Of a stretch of 35,601 nucleotides of DNA, positions 11,900 through 35,601 are shown piece by piece. A model generated the notes under the pieces. That model saw nothing but the letters and a program-made list of their open reading frames with translations. It did not search any database and was not told the origin of the DNA. This stretch comes from Acetatifactor sp. (lineage in GTDB: Bacteria > Bacillota > Clostridia > Lachnospirales > Lachnospiraceae), in assembly GCA_024403365.1 (NCBI GenBank), contig JAKSRX010000011.1, positions 1 to 35,601 of the forward strand, given 5' to 3'. Position 1 is the first letter of the stretch; every line of letters begins with the position of its first letter. The position numbers were made by a program, and so were the translations under genes.

Positions 11900-12160
11900 T
11901 GAACAATGCGATGAAGAGAAAGAGTACGATTCATCCACTTTTCACAGAGAGTTGCCGGCAGGTGAGAGGCGCGTAAAGTCGAATCCGAATACATCTTGGA
12001 GCAGCAAACCGAACGTTTGAAACCAGTAGGCTTTGACGGAAGACCCCGATATCGGTCGAAAGTATTGATTGATACTTGCTAAGCTGTGGAGTGTGAACTT
12101 CATGGGAACATTAGGTGGTAACGCGATTGACTCGCCCTTTTGATAAAGGGCGAGTTTTTT
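11900..12160 (+). promoter_or_regulatory. Tyrosine T-box leader of tyrS
   Basis: The 343-base stretch without a gene (11850-12192) holds this RNA. It senses uncharged tRNA-Tyr and prevents early termination when tyrosine is short. Stem I has the AGTA part of the S-turn at 11923-11926. The other half, GAA (11987-11989), is followed at once by TAC (11990-11992), the tyrosine specifier codon. The T-box sequence AGGTGGTAACGCG (12113-12125) contains the UGGU bulge (12116-12119), which would pair with an ACCA acceptor end. The competing terminator is a perfect 11-base stem (12130-12140 with 12145-12155) and a T run to 12160. The T-box differs slightly from the usual AGGGTGGTACCGCG. Confidence 0.93.
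12130..12160 (+). terminator. Attenuator hairpin of the T-box
   Basis: ACTCGCCCTTT (12130-12140) pairs perfectly with AAAGGGCGAGT (12145-12155) across a TGAT loop, followed by T residues. It forms when tRNA-Tyr is charged. Confidence 0.92.
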
Positions 12161-12192
12161 ATTTGCTGCCACGAAGAAAGAAGGAGAAAAAC

Positions 12193-13419
12193 ATGGGAAT
12201 TTATGAAGAATTGCAGGCAAGAGGATTGCTTGCACAGGTAACAAATGAAGAAGAGATCCGCAAGATGATCAACAGTGGACAGGCAACTTTTTACATCGGT
12301 TTTGACTGTACTGCAGACAGTTTGACAGCAGGTCACTTCATGGCACTGACTCTGATGAAGAGACTGCAGATGGCAGGCAACAAGCCTATCGCACTGATCG
12401 GTGGCGGTACTACCATGATCGGTGACCCCAGCGGACGTACCGATATGCGTAAGATGCTGACCAGAGAGGATATCGACCACAATGCTGAGTGCTTCAAGCG
12501 CCAGATGGAGCGTTTCATTGATTTCTCCGAAGGCAAGGCAATGATGGTAAACAATGCAGACTGGCTTCTGGATCTGAATTACATCGATCTGCTTCGTGAA
12601 GTTGGTCCTTGCTTCTCCGTTAACAATATGCTTCGTGCAGAGTGCTACAAGCAGCGTATGGAGAAGGGCCTTTCCTTCCTGGAGTTCAACTACATGATCA
12701 TGCAGTCCTACGACTTCTACTACATGTTCCAGAAATTCGGCTGTAACATGGAGTTCGGCGGAGATGACCAGTGGAGCAACATGCTGGGCGGTACCGAACT
12801 GATCAGAAAGAAGCTGGGCAAGGATGCTCATGCTATGACCATCACTCTGTTGACCGACTCTCAGGGTAAGAAGATGGGTAAGACCGCAGGTAATGCTGTA
12901 TGGCTTGATCCCAACAAGACCACTCCCTTCGAGTTCTACCAGTACTGGAGAAACGTTGGCGATGCTGATGTTATGAAGTGTCTGAGAATGCTGACCTTCC
13001 TTCCTCTGGAGCAGTTGGATGAGATGGCTAAATGGGAAGGTTCTGAACTGAACCGTGCAAAGGAGATCCTTGCATTCGAACTGACCGAGATGGTACATGG
13101 TACCGAGGAAGCAAACAAGGCACAGGAGAGTGCAAGAGCACTGTTCGCAGGCGGCGGAAATGCAGCAGATATGCCTTGTGCAGAATTGACTGCAGATGAC
13201 TTTATGAATGGTACCATCGATATTTGCGGTGTACTTGTAAAGTCCGGCTTGACCGCTTCCAGAAACGAAGCAAGACGTGCCGTTGAGCAGGGTGGCGTTA
13301 CCGTGGATAACGAGAAGGTCACCGATCTGAAGACTGTTTACACAGCAGAAGATTTCGCAGGCGAAGGCAAGATCGTAAAGCGCGGTAAGAAGAACTTCAT
13401 GCGTGTAGTAGTAAAATAG
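12193..13419 (+). CDS. tyrS: Tyrosyl-tRNA synthetase
   Basis: This class I synthetase joins tyrosine to tRNA-Tyr. The protein is 408 residues from the ATG at 12193, which has an AAGGAG site at 12181-12186. An upstream in-frame extension from 12115 runs through the T-box terminator and is rejected. Landmarks are FDCTADSLTAGHFMAL (the HIGH-type motif is TAGH here), GDPSGRTDMR, QSYDF, DDQWSNM, a KMSKS-type loop KKMGKT, and a C-terminal S4 RNA-binding domain (SRNEARRAVEQGGVTVD). Control by the T-box upstream confirms the amino acid. Confidence 0.97.
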   Translation: MGIYEELQARGLLAQVTNEEEIRKMINSGQATFYIGFDCTADSLTAGHFMALTLMKRLQMAGNKPIALIGGGTTMIGDPSGRTDMRKMLTREDIDHNAECFKRQMERFIDFSEGKAMMVNNADWLLDLNYIDLLREVGPCFSVNNMLRAECYKQRMEKGLSFLEFNYMIMQSYDFYYMFQKFGCNMEFGGDDQWSNMLGGTELIRKKLGKDAHAMTITLLTDSQGKKMGKTAGNAVWLDPNKTTPFEFYQYWRNVGDADVMKCLRMLTFLPLEQLDEMAKWEGSELNRAKEILAFELTEMVHGTEEANKAQESARALFAGGGNAADMPCAELTADDFMNGTIDICGVLVKSGLTASRNEARRAVEQGGVTVDNEKVTDLKTVYTAEDFAGEGKIVKRGKKNFMRVVVK

Positions 13420-13437
13420 TTTGAAATATGATAAAAT

Positions 13438-13472
13438 GGCTGTGGACTCTGTGCAGGAGTCCCGGCCTTTTT
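13438..13472 (+). terminator. Intrinsic terminator of tyrS
   Basis: GGACTC (13444-13449) pairs with GAGTCC (13457-13462). An outer GGC/GCC pair (13438-13440 with 13465-13467) extends the stem before a T-rich tract (13468-13478). This hairpin lies inside a possible longer reading frame from 13428 and argues against that start for the next gene. Confidence 0.75.
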
Positions 13473-13508
13473 GTTTTTGCGAAAATAACTGCACTGAGAG
13501 GTTATTAC

Positions 13509-15245
13509 ATGAGATTTATCGGGGCTTACCTGAAAAAGTATATAAAGATCATCGCAGTAGGTATGACGATCAAGATCAGCGGCAGTATGCTGGAACTTTT
13601 GATCCCTTATGTTCTGGAACATATCATCGATGATGTGGTGTTGGAGAAAAAGATCAGCAGTGTGGTACTCTGGGGCTTTCTTATGATCGGACTGGCTATT
13701 CTGGTCCGTGCAATGAACATCACAGCGAACCGTATGGCGGTGCGTGTGGCCAGCGAGAGCAACTTTGATATTCGAAGAGATCTGTTTCGTAAGTCAATCA
13801 ATCTTTCCGGCAGCCAGGTGGATGAGATAGGACTTCCCTCACTGACTTCCAGAATGACTGCGGATTCCTATAATCTGCAGAATTTTATCCGTTCCGTGCA
13901 GACGCTTGGTATCCGTGCCCCCATATTACTGATGGGTGGTATTATCATTACTATGATCATGGATTGGAGACTGGCTCTGATCCTGCTATGTATGGCTCCG
14001 TTTATGATCCTGATCATGGTCTGCATTTCTCTTCGGGGTATTCCGTTTTATGAGAAGGTGCAGGCTGGTGTGGACGATATCGTTCGTATCATGCGTGAAA
14101 ACATCACCGGTATCCGTGTGGTAAAGGCGCTGTCCAAGGAGACCTATGAGCGCAAGAGATATGATAATGCCAATGAAGAACTGGCGAAAAGAGATATCAC
14201 CGCAGGCGTGATCATGTCACTTCCCGTTCCTTTGGTAACATTGCTTTTGAATATCGGCCTGACTCTTGTTGTTATCATTGGTGCAAAACTTGTAAATGCA
14301 GGCCTGACTAAGCCAGGAGTGATTTTGGCCTTCCTGACTTACTTTAATATGATGATGATGGGGGTTATGGGCCTTTCCCGTATGTTTACCATGATGAGTA
14401 AAGCGGATGCTTCCGCAGGACGAATCGAGGAAGTGGTAAAGATGCCCGTGGACCTGCTGCCGATAGCGGAAGCGGAGGCTGCCCATACAGACAGAGAAGG
14501 ATTTATCGTTTTTGATCATGTGACGTTTAAATACGGCAGTGATGATCCTATGGCCGGCCATGAGAGACAGAACTGTCTGACGGATGTGGATTTTGTGATC
14601 AAAAAAGGCGGCAGTCTAGGAATCATCGGTGCCACCGGTTCCGGTAAGACTACCATAGCCAACCTTCTGATGCGATTTTATGATACCAATGAAGGTCATG
14701 TCTTTATCGATGGGAAAGATGTTCGCACCTATGATAAGGATCAGCTGCACCGTAAATTCGGTGTGGTATTTCAAAATGATGTGATCTTTGCGGATACCCT
14801 GAGGGAAAACATATCTTTTGGCCGTACCGTGGATGATGACAGGATATGGAGTGCTGCTGAAGATGCCAGAGCGAAAGAATTCCTGGAAGGCTACGAGGAT
14901 GGACTTGGACATGAGGCAGTGATCCGAGGTGCCAACTTAAGCGGCGGACAGAAACAGAGAGTCCTGATCGCCAGAGCGCTGGCAGCTAAGCCGGAGATAC
15001 TGATTTTGGACGATTCTTCCAGTGCGCTGGATTATAAGACAGATGCGGAACTTAGAAAAGCGATTCGCACCAATTATCCGGATACGACGACCATCGTGGT
15101 AGCACAGCGAATCAGTTCCATTATGAATCTGGATGAGATCATCGTTTTGGAGGAAGGCCGCGTCGTAGGACACGGTTCCCATGAGGAACTGATGGAAAAT
15201 AACGAGATGTATCGAAAGATCTACAAGACCCAGATGGAAGTGTAA
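13509..15245 (+). CDS. ABC exporter half-transporter, degenerate ATPase subunit
   Basis: This 578-residue protein has six membrane spans followed by an ATPase domain, the normal size for a half-exporter. I place the start at 13509 (GAGAGG at 13496-13501), since an upstream in-frame ATG at 13428 lies before the tyrS terminator and lacks a ribosome site. The ATPase has Walker A GATGSGKT and a good signature LSGGQKQR. The catalytic glutamate after Walker B is aspartate (ILILDDSSSALD) and the switch histidine is glutamine (VVAQRISSI). Such changes mark the degenerate member of heterodimers such as BmrC/BmrD. The partner follows at 15314. Substrate unknown; multidrug or peptide export is likely. 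Confidence 0.88.
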   Translation: MRFIGAYLKKYIKIIAVGMTIKISGSMLELLIPYVLEHIIDDVVLEKKISSVVLWGFLMIGLAILVRAMNITANRMAVRVASESNFDIRRDLFRKSINLSGSQVDEIGLPSLTSRMTADSYNLQNFIRSVQTLGIRAPILLMGGIIITMIMDWRLALILLCMAPFMILIMVCISLRGIPFYEKVQAGVDDIVRIMRENITGIRVVKALSKETYERKRYDNANEELAKRDITAGVIMSLPVPLVTLLLNIGLTLVVIIGAKLVNAGLTKPGVILAFLTYFNMMMMGVMGLSRMFTMMSKADASAGRIEEVVKMPVDLLPIAEAEAAHTDREGFIVFDHVTFKYGSDDPMAGHERQNCLTDVDFVIKKGGSLGIIGATGSGKTTIANLLMRFYDTNEGHVFIDGKDVRTYDKDQLHRKFGVVFQNDVIFADTLRENISFGRTVDDDRIWSAAEDARAKEFLEGYEDGLGHEAVIRGANLSGGQKQRVLIARALAAKPEILILDDSSSALDYKTDAELRKAIRTNYPDTTTIVVAQRISSIMNLDEIIVLEEGRVVGHGSHEELMENNEMYRKIYKTQMEV

Positions 15246-15252
15246 AGATAAC

Positions 15253-15327
15253 ATGAAATCTAAGCACGGCACCGATTCCACCGGAATCGGTACAAAAAAT
15301 GGAAGTGTAATGTATGGCAAAAAATGA
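15253..15327 (+). CDS. Possible 24-residue leader ORF between the two ABC genes
   Basis: An ATG at 15253 opens a 24-codon frame (begins MKSKHGTDSTG, ends YGKK) whose TGA at 15325-15327 lies 12 bases past the start of the next gene. It contains a perfect 9-base inverted repeat (15271-15279 with 15283-15291) with no T run. It may be a coupling peptide, or merely spacer. The bases ATGGAAGTGTAA occur both at the end of the previous gene (15234-15245) and again at 15299-15310, suggesting a small duplication. Low confidence that it is translated. Confidence 0.25.
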   Translation: MKSKHGTDSTGIGTKNGSVMYGKK

Positions 15328-17080
15328 CTCAACTAATAAACCGAAAGATACAAAAGGGACATTCTTACGAATGCTTGCCTACATGGGGCAGTATAAGTTT
15401 GTGATCCTTGGCGTTCTGATCCTTTGTTTTGCCAGCAATATGCTTGCTTTGTGGGGGCCGAATCTGGCCGGCAAAGCGATCAGTGAAGCTGCAGCAGGAC
15501 AGGGAAAAGTCAACTTCAGCAGGGTATATTATTATGCTTCCCGCATGTTGTTGGTGTATCTTGGCTCGGCAATATTGACTGTCCTGATCAATGTTATCAT
15601 GGTGACATTGAGTAAGTGGATCTCACGTAAGATGCGTCGGGATATATTCGAGAAACTGATGAAACTGCCGGTAGGATTCTTTGACAGAAACCAGGCCGGA
15701 GATATTATCAGCAGAGTATCTTATGACGTGGATGTGATCGGAACCTGTCTTGCCACAGATGTAGTACAAATACTGACCAGTGTGGTAACGGTTTTAGGTT
15801 CCCTGGTGATGATGGTGACCATTTCCCCGTTACTTTCCTTGACGGTGCTGATCACAGTGCCTATGGCGATCACTTATACTACCAGAATTCGTACATTCAC
15901 GCAGCCGAGATTCAGCAAGCGTTCCAAGAATTACGGCAAGATGAACGGATTTGTGGAAGAGATGCTTTCCGGACAGAAGACGATACTGGCGTATGCATAC
16001 GAGGATCAGGTGGAAGATAGATTCAAGGCTATCAATGATGAAGTGGCCTTTTCCTACTATGATGCGGAATACTATGGCTGCAGTATGGGACCTTCCGTCA
16101 ATCTGATCAACAATCTGGGATTGTGTCTGGTGGCGATGTTTGGTTCTCTGCTGTATATGAAGGAGATGATCTCCCTGGGCCAGATCTCTTCCTTTGTATT
16201 GTATTCCAGAAAGTTTTCCGGGCCCATCAATGAGATCGCAAATATTGTAAATGAATTGTATTCCGCACTGTCAGCTGCAGAGAGAGTGTTCCATCTCCTG
16301 GATCAGGAGGAAGAGGTTGCGGATGCTGCGGATGTGCAGGAACTGACAGATGTCAAAGGTAAGGTAGAGTTTGAACATGTCTACTTCGGTTATGAGGAAG
16401 GAAAGACGATCATTCATGATCTGAACCTGACGGCAGACGCAGGTAAACTGATCGCTATCGTCGGACCTACCGGTGCCGGTAAGACCACCATTATCAACCT
16501 GCTGATGCGATTCTACGATGTCAACGAGGGCAAGATCTTAGTGGATGAGAAAGAGATCCGCTCCCTGACCCGAGAGAGCCTGAGAGGGGCCTATGCCATG
16601 GTTTTGCAGGATACCTGGGTATTCCGAGGTACGATCTTTGACAACATTGCTTACGGCAAGGAAAATGCTACCAGAGAAGAAGTGGAACGGGTTGCCAAGG
16701 CGGCCAGGATCCATAACTTTATCATGAGATTACCCCAGGGGTATGACACCGTGATCACAGAGGACGGAGGCAATATCTCCAAGGGCCAGAAGCAGCTGCT
16801 TACCATTGCAAGAGCTATGCTGTATGATGCGAAGATGTTGATATTGGATGAGGCTACCTCCAATGTAGATACAGGTACCGAGAGAGAGATCCAGAAGGCC
16901 ATGCGTGAGTTGATGAAGGAGAAGACTTGCTTCGTCATTGCCCACAGATTGTCTACCATCAGAAATGCAGATCGTATTTTGGTACTGAATCATGGAGATG
17001 TTGTGGAACAGGGTGATCATGATTTCCTGATGGAAGAGCAGGGCTTTTATTACAAGTTGTACGCTTCACAGTTTGAATAA
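15314..17080 (+). CDS. ABC exporter half-transporter, catalytically competent subunit
   Basis: This 588-residue partner of the preceding gene has a six-span membrane domain and an ATPase. Walker A is GPTGAGKT, Walker B ends MLILDEATSNVD with the catalytic glutamate, and the switch histidine is kept (VIAHRLSTI). Its signature is altered to ISKGQ instead of LSGGQ. In a head-to-tail dimer, the altered signature pairs with the degenerate Walker site of the other subunit. One site is thus weak and the other, formed by this Walker site and the partner's LSGGQ, is intact. GGAAG at 15301-15305 is the ribosome site. Confidence 0.9.
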   Translation: MAKNDSTNKPKDTKGTFLRMLAYMGQYKFVILGVLILCFASNMLALWGPNLAGKAISEAAAGQGKVNFSRVYYYASRMLLVYLGSAILTVLINVIMVTLSKWISRKMRRDIFEKLMKLPVGFFDRNQAGDIISRVSYDVDVIGTCLATDVVQILTSVVTVLGSLVMMVTISPLLSLTVLITVPMAITYTTRIRTFTQPRFSKRSKNYGKMNGFVEEMLSGQKTILAYAYEDQVEDRFKAINDEVAFSYYDAEYYGCSMGPSVNLINNLGLCLVAMFGSLLYMKEMISLGQISSFVLYSRKFSGPINEIANIVNELYSALSAAERVFHLLDQEEEVADAADVQELTDVKGKVEFEHVYFGYEEGKTIIHDLNLTADAGKLIAIVGPTGAGKTTIINLLMRFYDVNEGKILVDEKEIRSLTRESLRGAYAMVLQDTWVFRGTIFDNIAYGKENATREEVERVAKAARIHNFIMRLPQGYDTVITEDGGNISKGQKQLLTIARAMLYDAKMLILDEATSNVDTGTEREIQKAMRELMKEKTCFVIAHRLSTIRNADRILVLNHGDVVEQGDHDFLMEEQGFYYKLYASQFE

Positions 17081-17103
17081 GTTTATAGAAGATGGAGAAA
17101 AAG

Positions 17104-18162
17104 ATGAAAAATTGGAACAAACCGGTGCAGATCAAACATCTGACCATCAAAAATCCTCTGGCAGTGCCCCCTATGGTGTGCTTTTATTGGCCGGATGAGA
17201 ACGGATATGTGACAGAGAAGAATATCAGACATTACAGAGAACTGGCAGAAGGTGGTTTCGGACTGGTGATCGTGGAAGCCACAGCCATTACGAAACGAGG
17301 CAAACTGCATGACTCCGAGTTGGGTATCTGGGAAGATGGACAGATCGAGGGGCTTCGTAAGATCACGGATGCCATCCATGAAAACGGCGCTAAGACCTTT
17401 ATTCAATTGGTGCATGCAGGCGGCAACGGAGCAGATCCCGAAGCGGATGCACCTTCAGACAAGGTTTACAGAGGTCATAACAACGGTCATGAGATGAGTA
17501 AGCAGCGTATAGCGGAGACTATAGAGGATTTCGTGCAGGCTGCACTTCGTGCGAAGAAGGCGGGCTTTGACGGTGTAGAACTGCATGGTTGTCATGGGTA
17601 TCTGATCTCTTGCTTCTGCAACAGCAGAACCAATTTCAGAACCGACGAATACGGAGAAAATAAGGCGCTTTTTGCCATAGAAGCATTGAAGGCAGTGAAG
17701 GCTGCCTGTGGGGATGACTTTGTGGTAGGTATCCGATTGGGTGCCTTCGAACCCTTGCTTGAAGATGGTTTGCGCCATGCAAAATTGATAGCACCTTTCG
17801 CGGATTTCCTGGATGTATCTTATGGCGGAGACTGCGACGGCTATGCGCCGGAAGATTTCCCCTGTTCTCAGGCGGTGTATGGTGCTATGCGTATCAAGCA
17901 GGAGCTTCCCGAGATGCCTGTATTTGGTGTGCATAACATCAACAGTGAGAAGGCAATTGAAGATGCATTGAGTACCGGTATCGATATGGTGGACATCGGG
18001 AAGGCTGCATTGGTGGATCCAGCCATCGCAGCGCACATCTTAAACGGGGAGAAATACGGTCAGTGCCTGCACTGCAACAACTATTGCCGTTGGAATCCCT
18101 GGGAAATGGCAGATGAGACAAAGATCTGTCCCGGTGCCGTGAAGTGGCAGAGAGAACAGTAA
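17104..18162 (+). CDS. NADH:flavin oxidoreductase, old yellow enzyme family
   Basis: This predicted FMN-dependent TIM-barrel enzyme reduces activated C=C bonds or related substrates with NAD(P)H; the natural substrate is unknown. The protein is 352 residues from the ATG at 17104, which has a GGAG site six bases upstream. An in-frame ATG at 17092 would add four residues but lacks a ribosome site. Motifs are FIQLVHAGG, the active-site stretch VELHGCHGYLISCF, NFRTDEYGE and the GKAALVDP phosphate-binding loop. The cysteine-containing tail CLHCNNYC is the kind seen in the larger Fe-S-linked 2,4-dienoyl-CoA reductase group, but the enzyme here ends at the OYE domain with only part of that cluster. 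Confidence 0.85.
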   Translation: MKNWNKPVQIKHLTIKNPLAVPPMVCFYWPDENGYVTEKNIRHYRELAEGGFGLVIVEATAITKRGKLHDSELGIWEDGQIEGLRKITDAIHENGAKTFIQLVHAGGNGADPEADAPSDKVYRGHNNGHEMSKQRIAETIEDFVQAALRAKKAGFDGVELHGCHGYLISCFCNSRTNFRTDEYGENKALFAIEALKAVKAACGDDFVVGIRLGAFEPLLEDGLRHAKLIAPFADFLDVSYGGDCDGYAPEDFPCSQAVYGAMRIKQELPEMPVFGVHNINSEKAIEDALSTGIDMVDIGKAALVDPAIAAHILNGEKYGQCLHCNNYCRWNPWEMADETKICPGAVKWQREQ

Positions 18163-33168: not shown

Positions 33169-33204
33169 AAGCGGTCAGGGACAATTCGTTCCTTGACCGC
33201 TTTT
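33169..33204 (+). terminator. Intrinsic terminator of surE
   Basis: A 13-base stem (33169-33181 with 33190-33202, one G-T pair) ends in TTTT (33201-33204). Its 3' arm also holds the -35 of the next promoter. Confidence 0.85.
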
Positions 33205-33221
33205 CTTACTTATGCTATGAT
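33193..33221 (+). promoter_or_regulatory. Promoter of the cobalamin-riboswitch unit
   Basis: TTGACC (33193-33198), 17 bases, TATGAT (33216-33221). The start point near 33228 lies about 20 bases before the aptamer. Confidence 0.8.
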
Positions 33222-33249
33222 GAAGCCAATTGAATACTCGATAAGAGAA

Positions 33250-33446
33250 GATACGGTTTGAAAAGTTGTGAACTGAGTAGATAAAAGGGAATCCGGTTCG
33301 AATCCGGAACAACCGCCATTACTGTATTTGACGAATCGAAGAATACCATATGCCATTGAAGTTGCTTGTAGAAATGCGGGAACTTTGAGAAGGCGTATTC
33401 TTTGCGTGAAATTTCACTGATCATAAGTCAGGATACCTGCCGTATC
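33250..33446 (+). promoter_or_regulatory. Cobalamin riboswitch aptamer
   Basis: The bases 33155-33651 hold no gene but contain this RNA. P1 is a perfect seven-base pair, GATACGG (33250-33256) with CCGTATC (33440-33446). Conserved blocks appear in order: GGGAATCCGG with TCCGGAAC (33277-33310), AACCGCCATTACTGTA (33311-33326; consensus has CCGCTACTGT), the B12-box-like GCCATTG (33352-33358), and AGTCAGGATACCTGCC (33426-33441; consensus AGTCAGGAGACCTGCC). The aptamer binds adenosylcobalamin or a related corrinoid; high ligand normally turns expression off. Confidence 0.95.
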
Positions 33447-33624
33447 ATCTGTAAGGTTAACCATGATTGGGCGTGAAGAGTGCAACCGATCTATCTGTTT
33501 TGCAGACAGTTTCGGCCTGCACTTGTTTTAGTGCCGCGACAGTACTGTTTCTTTTTCGTATGCTCTTTTGGATAGATCAGTTGTACTCTTTCTCCTTGCT
33601 TTGTGGGAGAAAGAGTATTTTTTT
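33447..33624 (+). promoter_or_regulatory. Expression platform of the cobalamin riboswitch
   Basis: Two pairings compete here. Hairpin A is 33479-33484 with 33518-33523, with inner pairs 33486-33489/33512-33515 and 33495-33498/33506-33509. Helix B is 33483-33495 with 33571-33583 (12 of 13 pairs) and stacks on the terminator stem. They share bases, so only one can form at a time. The switching direction is inferred. Confidence 0.55.
33584..33624 (+). terminator. Riboswitch-controlled intrinsic terminator
   Basis: TACTCTTTCTCC (33584-33595) pairs perfectly with GGAGAAAGAGTA (33606-33617), followed by seven T residues (33618-33624). It lies between the cobalamin aptamer and the two downstream genes. 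Confidence 0.92.
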
Positions 33625-33651
33625 GCCAAAAATAAGAAAAGGAGGGATGGA

Positions 33652-33876
33652 ATGAACGGCGAAGAGAAGATTGCTTGGGCGACGGAGCAATTGCAGGCAA
33701 AATACAGAGAACTTGGACGACTGCCGAAAAAAGATGATTTCGACGATGTCACAAGATCTCGTATCAAAGCTTTTCTGGGCCCTTGGCCGCGAGCTTTGGA
33801 AAAAGCAGGCTTAAAAGAGATCCACAAGCCTGATTCCGTACCGACTTTTACGAAGAGTAAGGTCCGTACCGAGTAA
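33652..33876 (+). CDS. 74-residue protein with a homing-endonuclease-associated (HNH) repeat
   Basis: The frame starts at 33652 after GGAGGG (33641-33646). A single repeat of about 40 residues is visible: AKYRELGRLPKKDDF, then RIKAFLGPWPRALEKAGL. The pattern (aromatic, GR-P, a middle helix, G-W-AL--AG) is that of the HNH_repeat family (PF18780 type), small helical DNA-binding modules found beside homing endonucleases and also alone. No nuclease domain is present. It sits directly after the riboswitch terminator and 22 bases before the secreted-protein gene, so it is probably B12-regulated too. Function unknown; a DNA-binding regulator is possible. Confidence 0.75.
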   Translation: MNGEEKIAWATEQLQAKYRELGRLPKKDDFDDVTRSRIKAFLGPWPRALEKAGLKEIHKPDSVPTFTKSKVRTE

Positions 33877-33898
33877 CAAGAAAAAGAGAGGAACGAAC

Positions 33899-35601
33899 AT
33901 GAAATTCAGAAAAACAAGATTTTTGGCGTTGCTCCTGTCAATGATGATGCTCTTTACTTCTATCCCTGCCGTAGCGCAGGGGGCATCCGATGCATTCAGA
34001 GTTATTGTGTCTTTCGAAGGACTGACACTGGGACAGGGATTGTATTTTGAGCCTAAGGCATACAGTTTACAGGAGATCAATGATCTGATCGCGCAGGAGG
34101 GATATGGTCCCTATGCACAGGAGGAATTGACAGCAGGTATGGCTACCCTTGCATTCCTGATCGATCACAATGTAGATTACAATATGTCCGGTAGTTGGGA
34201 CAGCGATGCTTATCTTTCCGCTATCAAAGGTATCGATAAGGGAACCATCGATATTCCTGAGATCATCGGAGAGAACGGTGGACCTTCCAATGATGATAAT
34301 GATGGTAACGATGATGATTATCTGGGAGAGTTTGACTATAGTATGATGTCCGGATGGATGATCACAGTCAATGATCTTATGACCCCTGTAGGCTGCAGCC
34401 AGTTTGGCCTTGAAGATTATATCGGTACCGATGGTTATGGAGCCTATGACAATACTTATGTGATCAGATGGCAGTATACTCTATACGGCTATGGTGCAGA
34501 TCTGGGTTATGATCTGGGCTGGGGCATGCCTCCTTATTTCGAGGCTGCAGAGAAGTCTCAGCTCTATATTGATTATGTGGAGTGCACCGATGCGCAGAAG
34601 AAGGCTGCCGTTATGAAGACCATGGAGAAACTGACAGCCACCGAAGAAGAATTTGCTGCTGCCAGCAAGACACTGAAGGGCAGCGAAGCACCTAAGCAGA
34701 ATGTTGATTACGAGACTGCTATGAACGAGACTATGGCACAGCTAAAGGTAAATGTTCCCGCCCCTGCTTTCGGAACCAATGCAGGTGAATGGACTGTGCT
34801 TACCCTGGCAAGAGGCGGATATCTTCCTTTGGATGATCCTTATTTTGAAGGATATTATCAGAGAGTCGTACAGACCGTGAAGGATACAACTGCTACCGTT
34901 AATCTTGGAAACAAGCTCCATAAGTCCAAATCTACCGAGAACTCCAGATTGATCCTGGCCCTTTCCGCTATCGGTAAGGATGCCAGAGATGTAGACGGAA
35001 TTGATCTGGTAGAGCCTTTGGAGGACCTTACCTGGGTCAAGAAACAGGGCATCAACGGACCTATCTTTACGCTGCTTGCATTGGACAGCAGAAATTATGA
35101 GACAGAAGATCCTACCGTAAGACAGCAGTGTATCGATTATATTCTGGGTAAGCAGCTGGCCGGAGGCGGTTGGGCACTCAGCGGAGCTAACGCAGATCCC
35201 GATATCACTTCCATGGCTCTGCAGGCACTTGCTAAATACAGTACCGATGAAGCGGTCTGCGAGGCGGCAATCGCTGCTTTTGAGGCACTTTCCGCGATGC
35301 AGAAAGACGACGGCGGTTTTGCTTCCTGGGGTTCTGTAAACTCTGAAAGTATCTCACAGGTGATCGTAGCCTGCACATCATGGTATATCGATCCCGGCCT
35401 GGATTCCGAGTTCGTGAAGGATCGTTCCGCAGTGGATGCGCTTCTCGACTTCTATGTAGAGGACAGCAAGGGATTTGCGCATGTATTGGAAAGCGGCGCC
35501 GGCTATACAGGCGGTGTTGTAAATGGTATGGCTACCGCTCAGGCTCGTTATGCTCTGGTAGCATATAACAGAATGTTGAACGGTCAGACCGCCCCGTATG
35601 A
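33899..35601 (+). CDS. Secreted transcobalamin-like protein (DUF4430 plus alpha/alpha toroid), cut by window edge
   Basis: The first 567 residues are visible; the frame is open at the edge. A signal peptide (MKFRKTRFLALLLSMMM, likely cut after AQG/A near residue 29) is followed by a DUF4430/transcobalamin C-terminal-like beta domain (about residues 30-215: FRVIVSFEGLTLGQG, SGWMITVNDL, RWQYTLYGYG) with an acidic NDDNDGNDDD insert. From about residue 280, helical repeats with GGW and GGF motifs (LAGGGWALSG, QKDDGGFASWG) indicate an alpha/alpha toroid of the intrinsic-factor/terpenoid-cyclase fold. These two fold types bind cobalamin together in animal proteins. Control by a cobalamin riboswitch supports extracellular corrinoid capture; this is inferred. 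The start follows GAGAGGAACGAAC. Confidence 0.85.
   Translation, partial: MKFRKTRFLALLLSMMMLFTSIPAVAQGASDAFRVIVSFEGLTLGQGLYFEPKAYSLQEINDLIAQEGYGPYAQEELTAGMATLAFLIDHNVDYNMSGSWDSDAYLSAIKGIDKGTIDIPEIIGENGGPSNDDNDGNDDDYLGEFDYSMMSGWMITVNDLMTPVGCSQFGLEDYIGTDGYGAYDNTYVIRWQYTLYGYGADLGYDLGWGMPPYFEAAEKSQLYIDYVECTDAQKKAAVMKTMEKLTATEEEFAAASKTLKGSEAPKQNVDYETAMNETMAQLKVNVPAPAFGTNAGEWTVLTLARGGYLPLDDPYFEGYYQRVVQTVKDTTATVNLGNKLHKSKSTENSRLILALSAIGKDARDVDGIDLVEPLEDLTWVKKQGINGPIFTLLALDSRNYETEDPTVRQQCIDYILGKQLAGGGWALSGANADPDITSMALQALAKYSTDEAVCEAAIAAFEALSAMQKDDGGFASWGSVNSESISQVIVACTSWYIDPGLDSEFVKDRSAVDALLDFYVEDSKGFAHVLESGAGYTGGVVNGMATAQARYALVAYNRMLNGQTAPY

Follow-up and report, generated by a model that had tools for sequence, protein, structure and literature searches.

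The closest described relatives of the system presented here are predicted B12 scavengers of low-GC Gram-positive bacteria. Burroughs et al. (2007; PMC1796856) describe the SLBB superfamily and, in the passages of that paper devoted to them, SLBB domains fused to a toroid domain in low-GC Gram-positives. The fusion proteins are proposed there to be B12 scavengers, encoded in operons that also contain CbiO/CbiQ-like transporter genes and the gene of a second SLBB protein, and the module is argued to have been transferred from low-GC Gram-positives to animals. Vertebrate TCN proteins are described to carry DUF4430 at the C terminus (PMC4350170, in part). The energy-coupling factor (ECF) transporter ECF-CbrT, whose structure is available (PDB ID 6FNP), has been shown to import cobalamin and cobinamide in an ATP-dependent manner (PMC5997447, in part). 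Cohesins and dockerins outside cellulosomes are widespread, with mostly unknown roles according to the relevant part of PMC4300822. Here, we analyse a stretch of 35,601 nucleotides, the window, which is the entire contig C13 (JAKSRX010000011.1) of an Acetatifactor sp. metagenome-assembled genome (MAG; 2.09 Mb, 135 contigs, 80% complete), where a cobalamin riboswitch precedes an operon with a predicted corrinoid binder, a cohesin-dockerin pair, and ECF genes.

We consider it likely that this operon is a riboswitch-controlled system for corrinoid (B12) capture and import, with an extracellular binder docked beside an ECF importer. As predicted from sequence, the antiterminator would form and the operon would be transcribed when intracellular corrinoid is scarce, and the aptamer would fold and the terminator would stop transcription when corrinoid is plentiful. 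The secreted protein would bind corrinoid outside the cell via its SLBB (DUF4430) and toroid domains, and its C-terminal dockerin, judging from the domain pairing and the co-conservation, would dock on the neighbouring membrane-anchored cohesin. Docking would hold the loaded protein beside a DUF4430 lipoprotein, which may pass the corrinoid to the S component, a CbrT homolog, for ATP-driven ECF import.

The riboswitch operon and its continuation on a second contig

An earlier annotation of the window, referred to as the original prediction, had claimed a cobalamin aptamer and a terminator in front of a two-gene unit. The riboswitch and terminator before the gene unit are confirmed, with the Rfam search recovering the aptamer at full length and with an antiterminator competing with the terminator stem. 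The unit is larger, having at least six genes, and its second open reading frame (ORF) is truncated at the contig end. The features in the window are the following:

33193..33221, + strand: sigma-70-like promoter match (TTGACC, 17 nt, TATGAT, preceded by TG), 10/12 matches
33237..33458, + strand: cobalamin riboswitch aptamer (RF00174, 82.5 bits against a gathering score of 31.5, full model 1-189)
33476..33495, + strand: predicted antiterminator 5' arm, pairing with 33571-33590 (19/20 pairs, -26.1 kcal/mol)
33571..33590, + strand: predicted antiterminator 3' arm, pairing with 33476-33495 and overlapping the terminator 5' arm
33583..33625, + strand: intrinsic terminator, a 14-pair stem (33583-33618) followed by a T run (-20.6 kcal/mol)
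33652..33876, + strand: small HNH_repeat protein of 74 residues, the first gene of the operon (PF18780, 40.1 bits, cut-off 26)
33899..35601, + strand: secreted DUF4430(SLBB)-toroid protein, 567 residues in the window, open at the contig end and continuing on contig C69 (locus L034, 17622-18740, - strand)
34328..34411, + strand: DUF4430/SLBB match, residues 144-171 (PF14478, 20.5 bits, under the cut-off of 23.8)
34766..35599, + strand: alpha/alpha toroid domain, residues ~290-567 (PF00432/PF13243, below cut-off)

The best duplex of the antiterminator region is equalled by none of 1000 dinucleotide shuffles, and the layout of the leader is that of a predicted transcription-attenuating OFF switch. 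It is the only cobalamin riboswitch found in this 80%-complete genome. Two sigma-70-like matches were found in the region, with about one expected by chance; the listed match overlaps the end of a terminator-like hairpin (33169-33202) behind the surE gene, suggesting that the riboswitch unit probably has its own transcript.

The toroid gene is cut by the end of contig C13. The final 118 bases there overlap the end of another contig of this MAG, C69, with 96.6% identity and 4 mismatches. The joined protein has 567+372-38 = 901 residues. The possibility that C69 is not the true continuation, and the join an assembly artefact, draws on these 4 mismatches and on the fragmentation of the MAG into 135 contigs. 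However, the protein length agrees with the 898 to 905 residues of the orthologs on single contigs (L097-L100), and the gene order of C69 equals the order on intact contigs of relatives. Because synteny and protein length agree, we reject the artefact as highly improbable. The operon continues on C69 (coordinates of locus L034) as follows:

16883-17539, - strand: membrane cohesin gene, 218 residues with an N-terminal hydrophobic stretch (PF00963, 29.6 bits, cut-off 24.1)
15734-16879, - strand: DUF4430 lipoprotein, 381 residues, lipoprotein-like as judged by eye (PF14478, 64.0 bits, cut-off 23.8)
14768-15655, - strand: ECF-T protein, CbiQ-like (PF02361, 23.4 bits, cut-off 25)
12114-14786, - strand: ECF A-A-S fusion, 890 residues, two ABC ATPases and an S component (PF00005, two stretches, 194.2 bits)

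The complete 901-residue protein is composed of a signal peptide (the N terminus being signal-peptide-like as judged by eye), a DUF4430/SLBB domain, an alpha/alpha toroid, a cohesin-like domain, and a type I dockerin. The original prediction had advised extending the contig in search of transporter genes, which indeed leads to the ECF-T gene and the ECF A-A-S fusion on C69. The transporter and the cohesin-dockerin pair were missed there because both lie beyond the contig end.

Evidence for a corrinoid role

The corrinoid role claimed in the original prediction is supported, with the riboswitch, the CbrT-like S component, the DUF4430 lipoprotein, and the ECF genes all agreeing on this predicted role and the arrangement being conserved across species. 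In the profile search, the sole PDB match of the S domain at an E value of up to 10 is the CbrT chain (PDB ID 6FNP_A, E value 5.1e-10). The S component of a distant relative, Clostridium simiarum, matches the same chain at 1e-10, with the next best match at 0.047. CbiD was not found in the window's own genome, which is weak evidence in an 80%-complete MAG, and one B12-binding domain scores over the cut-off, in keeping with corrinoid salvage.

The linkage between riboswitches and toroid genes was evaluated in 68 genomes, consisting of the 67 of 299 searched family genomes with a toroid homolog and one congener. They contain 122 cobalamin riboswitch matches, 120 of them over the gathering score, where the filters lose some weak ones. 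A toroid homolog is found within 10 kb downstream on the same strand for 44 of the 122 riboswitches, in 36 genomes, compared with 2 in the mirror (upstream) position and 4 on the opposite strand. Where a genome has a toroid homolog and a single riboswitch (28 genomes), the two are linked in 21 cases.

This recurrent linkage bears on the alternative of a toroid protein that merely shares the operon and acts as an adhesin or as a squalene-cyclase-like or lyase-like enzyme. In the PDB, the toroid profile (A1) matches squalene-hopene cyclases best (4.8e-14), and giant surface proteins, up to 3382 residues long, occur among the homologs. However, toroid genes are repeatedly linked to cobalamin riboswitches and ECF genes, DUF4430 is fused or adjacent to the toroid across many species, and the S domain is CbrT-like in both cases tested, making an adhesin or enzyme very doubtful.

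A second alternative concerns the ligand, with the surface proteins capturing cobinamide, other cobamides, or carrier-bound corrinoid instead of complete cobalamin, and the riboswitch only reporting the end product. CbrT also imports cobinamide (PMC5997447, in part), and a second domain set, beta-propellers with dockerins, occurs in similar riboswitch operons of three genomes (G102, G159, and G214, see below). We keep this as a tentative possibility. Every candidate ligand would still be a corrinoid, so the ligand would change and the system would stay.

The cohesin-dockerin pair, its conservation and its partners

The dockerin at the C terminus of the completed toroid protein is of type I and scores 28.0 bits (PF00404, cut-off 22.9). 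Both calcium-loop patterns, DTNKDGVINAQD and NVNGDSRINTLD, can be read in the sequence following the rule for the two calcium-binding loops of dockerins. The dockerin profile (A3) has weak matches to PDB dockerin chains, the best being 4dh2_B at 0.011. The profile of the membrane cohesin family matches an entry named Endoglucanase (PDB ID 5nrm_A, 2.4e-4), Scaffoldin C (PDB ID 5lxv_A, 9.5e-4), and a scaffoldin anchoring protein (PDB ID 4uyp_A, 0.0029). The internal domain ahead of the dockerin is best described as cohesin-like, as it reaches 29.4 bits for PF00963 in the genome search, yet is absent from the hmmscan report. Its profile (A7) matched no cohesin in the PDB, and the hhalign comparison with the membrane cohesin family (A5) gives 86.9%.

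The conservation of the pair was followed in 76 named loci taken from the best 80 of 558 confirmed matches to the toroid alignment A2, a 9-row subset of the broad toroid alignment A1, a sample that is biased towards the window's own kind. The locus queries were the operon proteins and home-made dockerin and cohesin profiles, the latter seeded with the system's own domains among others. A membrane cohesin is found in 26 of these loci and a dockerin in 40; a further likely membrane cohesin in L102 was missed by the locus query (PF00963, 23.1 bits, below cut-off). The toroid, dockerin, membrane cohesin, DUF4430 lipoprotein, ECF-T, and ECF-AAS proteins are all present in 19 of the 26 cohesin loci, with contig ends truncating several of the remaining seven. 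The gene order of the window's genome is kept, for example, in L098, L099, L100, L101, L103, L109, and L112. The toroid ORF carries a dockerin in 25/26 loci with a cohesin gene versus 13/50 without (Fisher p=2.7e-9, relatedness not corrected), and in the lone exception, L116, a dockerin-like C terminus is visible in the alignment. The Pfam dockerin is at or over the cut-off in eight of ten relatives scanned, with L120 and L122 below.

A cobalamin-class riboswitch (RF00174, or RF01482 in three cases) is found upstream in 20 of the 26 cohesin loci. In L114 it is 1.3 kb away from the first operon gene, with a nearer match of 36.5 bits; in the others the distance is at most 500 nt. Of the remaining six loci, four (L103, L110, L129, and L156) have no more than about 110 nt of contig before the first gene.

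A quick tree was built from 116 toroid domains, 25 of them in the dockerin-plus-cohesin state. This state requires 7 changes on the tree, against a mean of 22.7 in shuffles, and its rows are labelled Clostridiaceae, Oscillospiraceae, and Lachnospiraceae, among others. The toroid protein was found in none of the 100 other genomes of the window's genus that were searched, drawn from a larger group, and its nearest named relatives among the matches listed have 64% identity and belong to other Clostridiales/Bacillota, which fits acquisition by transfer or patchy loss. Some toroid matches carry MAG labels such as Alistipes, Bifidobacteriaceae, or Coriobacteriales; they sit among Clostridia in the tree, which suggests mislabelled or mixed bins.

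A cellulosome in the usual sense, with a multi-cohesin scaffoldin and many dockerin enzymes, was considered and rejected. The window's own genome, at 80% completeness, has one PF00404 match and two PF00963 matches, and both cohesins are in this operon. The single dockerin match is taken to be that of the operon protein (28.0 bits). In 29 genomes with related loci, the number of dockerin matches is one in 10 genomes, zero at an E value of up to 0.001 in 3, and from 2 to 100 in 16, the genomes named Ruminococcus being rich in dockerins. The operon protein carries the Pfam dockerin in nine of the ten single-dockerin genomes (two below cut-off), the tenth (L135) being recognized by the home-made profile only. 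By coordinate arithmetic, all cohesin matches are in this operon in nine of the ten, and G413 has one weak extra match. The pair is therefore kept in genomes without a sign of a cellulosome.

The same figures bear on a further alternative, in which the corrinoid operon is as described and the dockerin binds elsewhere, either to a distant scaffoldin or to the cohesin-like domain of another copy of the protein, forming a polymer, while the membrane cohesin serves another partner. The cohesin-like domain of the protein itself (29.4 bits, hhalign 86.9%) would offer such a site. Ruminococcus bromii loci (L136, L141, and L150) encode a toroid protein with a dockerin and no adjacent cohesin gene, in genomes that hold 19 to 27 dockerins and 4 to 5 cohesins each. 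However, no further cohesin was found in the window's own genome, and nine of the ten single-dockerin relatives have no cohesin match outside the operon, the one in G413 scoring 19.4 bits, below the cut-off. We regard binding elsewhere as unlikely for the window's protein.

For R. bromii itself, the dockerin of the L150 toroid protein scores 49.6 bits, and the riboswitch upstream is over the cut-off in L150 (36.5), with the single matches in the L136 and L141 genomes below it (27.0). The species is reported to be unable to make B12 (PMC6231298, in part), and its scaffoldins are described to bind several dockerins (PMC5814915, in part). A dockerin-bearing predicted B12 binder in an amylosome-forming species suggests that vitamin capture may belong to the amylosome, and the R. 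bromii corrinoid binder may ride on this type of machinery.

A second arrangement is seen in regions chosen by riboswitch linkage or by dockerin matches (G102, G159, G214, G098, G220, and G216), which indicate recurrence, not frequency. The riboswitch operons of G102 and G214 encode large beta-propeller/cadherin-like proteins with Pfam dockerins, one of the two dockerins in G102 being under the cut-off (19.7), and G159 has large dockerin proteins in the equivalent position, detected with the home-made profile. Cohesin proteins are found in the same gene run in G102 (24.7 and 29.3 bits) and G159 (27.6), and G214 encodes an LPXTG-anchored protein that matches the home-made cohesin profile only. 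All three continue in the same orientation with a toroid protein, a DUF4430 protein, and ECF genes. In G098, a DUF4430 protein and a toroid protein, each with a dockerin, follow the riboswitch; in G220 a dockerin protein does, and in G216 a cohesin gene adjoins the toroid gene and the riboswitch. As a separate observation, the part of the G102 operon that lies between its cohesin genes and its toroid gene includes two genes unexpected in a vitamin operon (L077, 15429-17546), one for a MoxR-type AAA ATPase and one for a DUF58 protein. ORFs matching these in size are found in L079 and L083 (G159 and G214).

Taking both arrangements together, we lean slightly towards the wider proposal that gut Clostridia and relatives build cohesin-dockerin "corrinosomes", riboswitch-controlled assemblies in which SLBB-toroid proteins with a dockerin, and in some genomes also beta-propeller proteins with a dockerin, are anchored by cohesins of the membrane or wall and supply an ECF importer of the CbrT type. 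If true, the corrinosome would be a cohesin-dockerin system for a micronutrient instead of polysaccharides, bringing vitamin capture into the range of this pairing, and would exemplify an ECF transporter that is served by extracellular binding proteins. Within one regulated unit, the operon provides candidates for capture, tethering, and import, which makes the 2007 proposal of a bacterial transcobalamin directly testable. The one-to-one pair in genomes without another dockerin match could serve as a simple orthogonal connector for engineering.

Several points weigh against the proposed function of the operon. The original prediction was right that matches to DUF4430 and a toroid are present, but both stay under the Pfam cut-offs in the window's own protein (20.5 against 23.8 and, for Prenyltrans, 19.6 against 26.5). 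For PF14478 in ten relatives, three pass (24.2, 36.7, and 41.5), four are listed below the cut-off, and three are not listed. The ECF-T score is also slightly under its cut-off. The PDB profile searches found neither transcobalamin nor intrinsic factor, and no sequence link to the animal B12 carriers was found. No same-strand toroid homolog lies within 10 kb downstream of 78 of the 122 riboswitches, 7 of the 28 one-riboswitch genomes are unlinked, and the cohesin loci L100 and L131 have upstream sequence with no riboswitch over threshold. Competition for the dockerin could come from the internal cohesin-like domain. Finally, the C13-C69 join consists of a 118-base overlap with 4 mismatches and synteny, and the absence statements on the window's own genome rest on an 80%-complete MAG.

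Among the further features, the HNH_repeat protein is found in 10/76 named loci and 5/40 family regions, mostly between the riboswitch and the toroid gene (window, L097, L099, L103, L105, L109, L050-L052, L057, and L172), and it is present in loci whose toroid protein lacks a dockerin match as well (L050-L052 and L057). All ten homologs scanned from loci with toroid genes exceed the PF18780 cut-off, and a role as nucleic-acid-binding regulator is a guess. NCBIfam matches of the window's toroid protein are found far below the cut-offs only (SCO2321 family, 33.4 against 300; squalene cyclase, 24.7 against 322.7). Toroid homologs of more than 1000 residues are found in L037, L121, L127, L157, and other loci, the longest in L037 (3382 residues), and some of these giant surface proteins carry two or three toroid domains. 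The window's own genome encodes a second DUF4430 protein of 178 residues (29.9 bits, lipoprotein-like by eye) away from the operon on contig C87 (L035, 8555-9091), a contig with no riboswitch over threshold. A tyrosine--tRNA ligase gene (TIGR00234, 401.5 bits) is preceded by an ordinary T-box leader (window 11902-12142; RF00230, 103.6 bits).

Comparison with known systems

The window's protein shares with the proteins of Burroughs et al. the same two domains, secretion, and an operon with a second SLBB protein and CbiO/CbiQ-like genes, as far as these are described in the relevant passages (PMC1796856). The tethers named there are sortase anchors and polysaccharide-binding domains, and the main text never uses the word dockerin; the passages on these proteins contain no mention of riboswitch linkage. 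The original prediction of a transcobalamin-like B12 scavenger in Gram-positive bacteria is sound in that the corrinoid role is supported, but its central idea was already in print as a prediction in 2007. Its wording "animal-like" probably has the direction wrong, because animals are argued in the same source to have acquired the module from low-GC Gram-positives.

The pairing of a toroid with DUF4430/SLBB is also that of animal transcobalamin and intrinsic factor, a relation taken from parts of PMC1796856 and PMC4350170. Here, in contrast, the SLBB domain comes first, in reverse order, there is no sequence match to the solved animal proteins, and a dockerin is added. The original prediction had also proposed a check against PF01122, which we take to be the family of the eukaryotic toroid domain; it is absent among the matches of the window protein at an E value of up to 1.

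The importer resembles ECF-CbrT of Lactobacillus delbrueckii (PMC5997447, PDB ID 6FNP) in that the S domain matches CbrT only and two ECF ATPases and a T protein are present. In contrast to ECF-CbrT, both ATPases and the S component form one polypeptide of 890 residues, and the operon encodes extracellular binding proteins, whereas the part of the ECF-CbrT paper considered mentions no extra extracellular binder.

The connector is that of cellulosomes and amylosomes such as that of R. bromii (PMC5814915, in part), with a cohesin-dockerin pair and calcium-loop patterns in the dockerin. It differs from the cellulosome in having one dockerin and one membrane cohesin per system, not many enzymes on scaffoldins, and in carrying a predicted vitamin binder in place of a glycoside hydrolase. 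Unlike the non-cellulosomal cohesins and dockerins of PMC4300822, for which the relevant part of that paper makes no link to corrinoid uptake, the pair described here has a predicted function. In the open-access literature, mostly judged from listings and with subscription papers mostly outside the coverage, no earlier report linking cohesin-dockerin to corrinoid uptake was found.

BtuG and BtuH of Bacteroides are Gram-negative outer-membrane lipoproteins that capture B12 at the surface and feed BtuB. The operon described here is predicted to capture B12 at the surface for import as well. Set against these systems, its new element would be the cohesin-dockerin pair as a tether in a riboswitch-controlled corrinoid importer.

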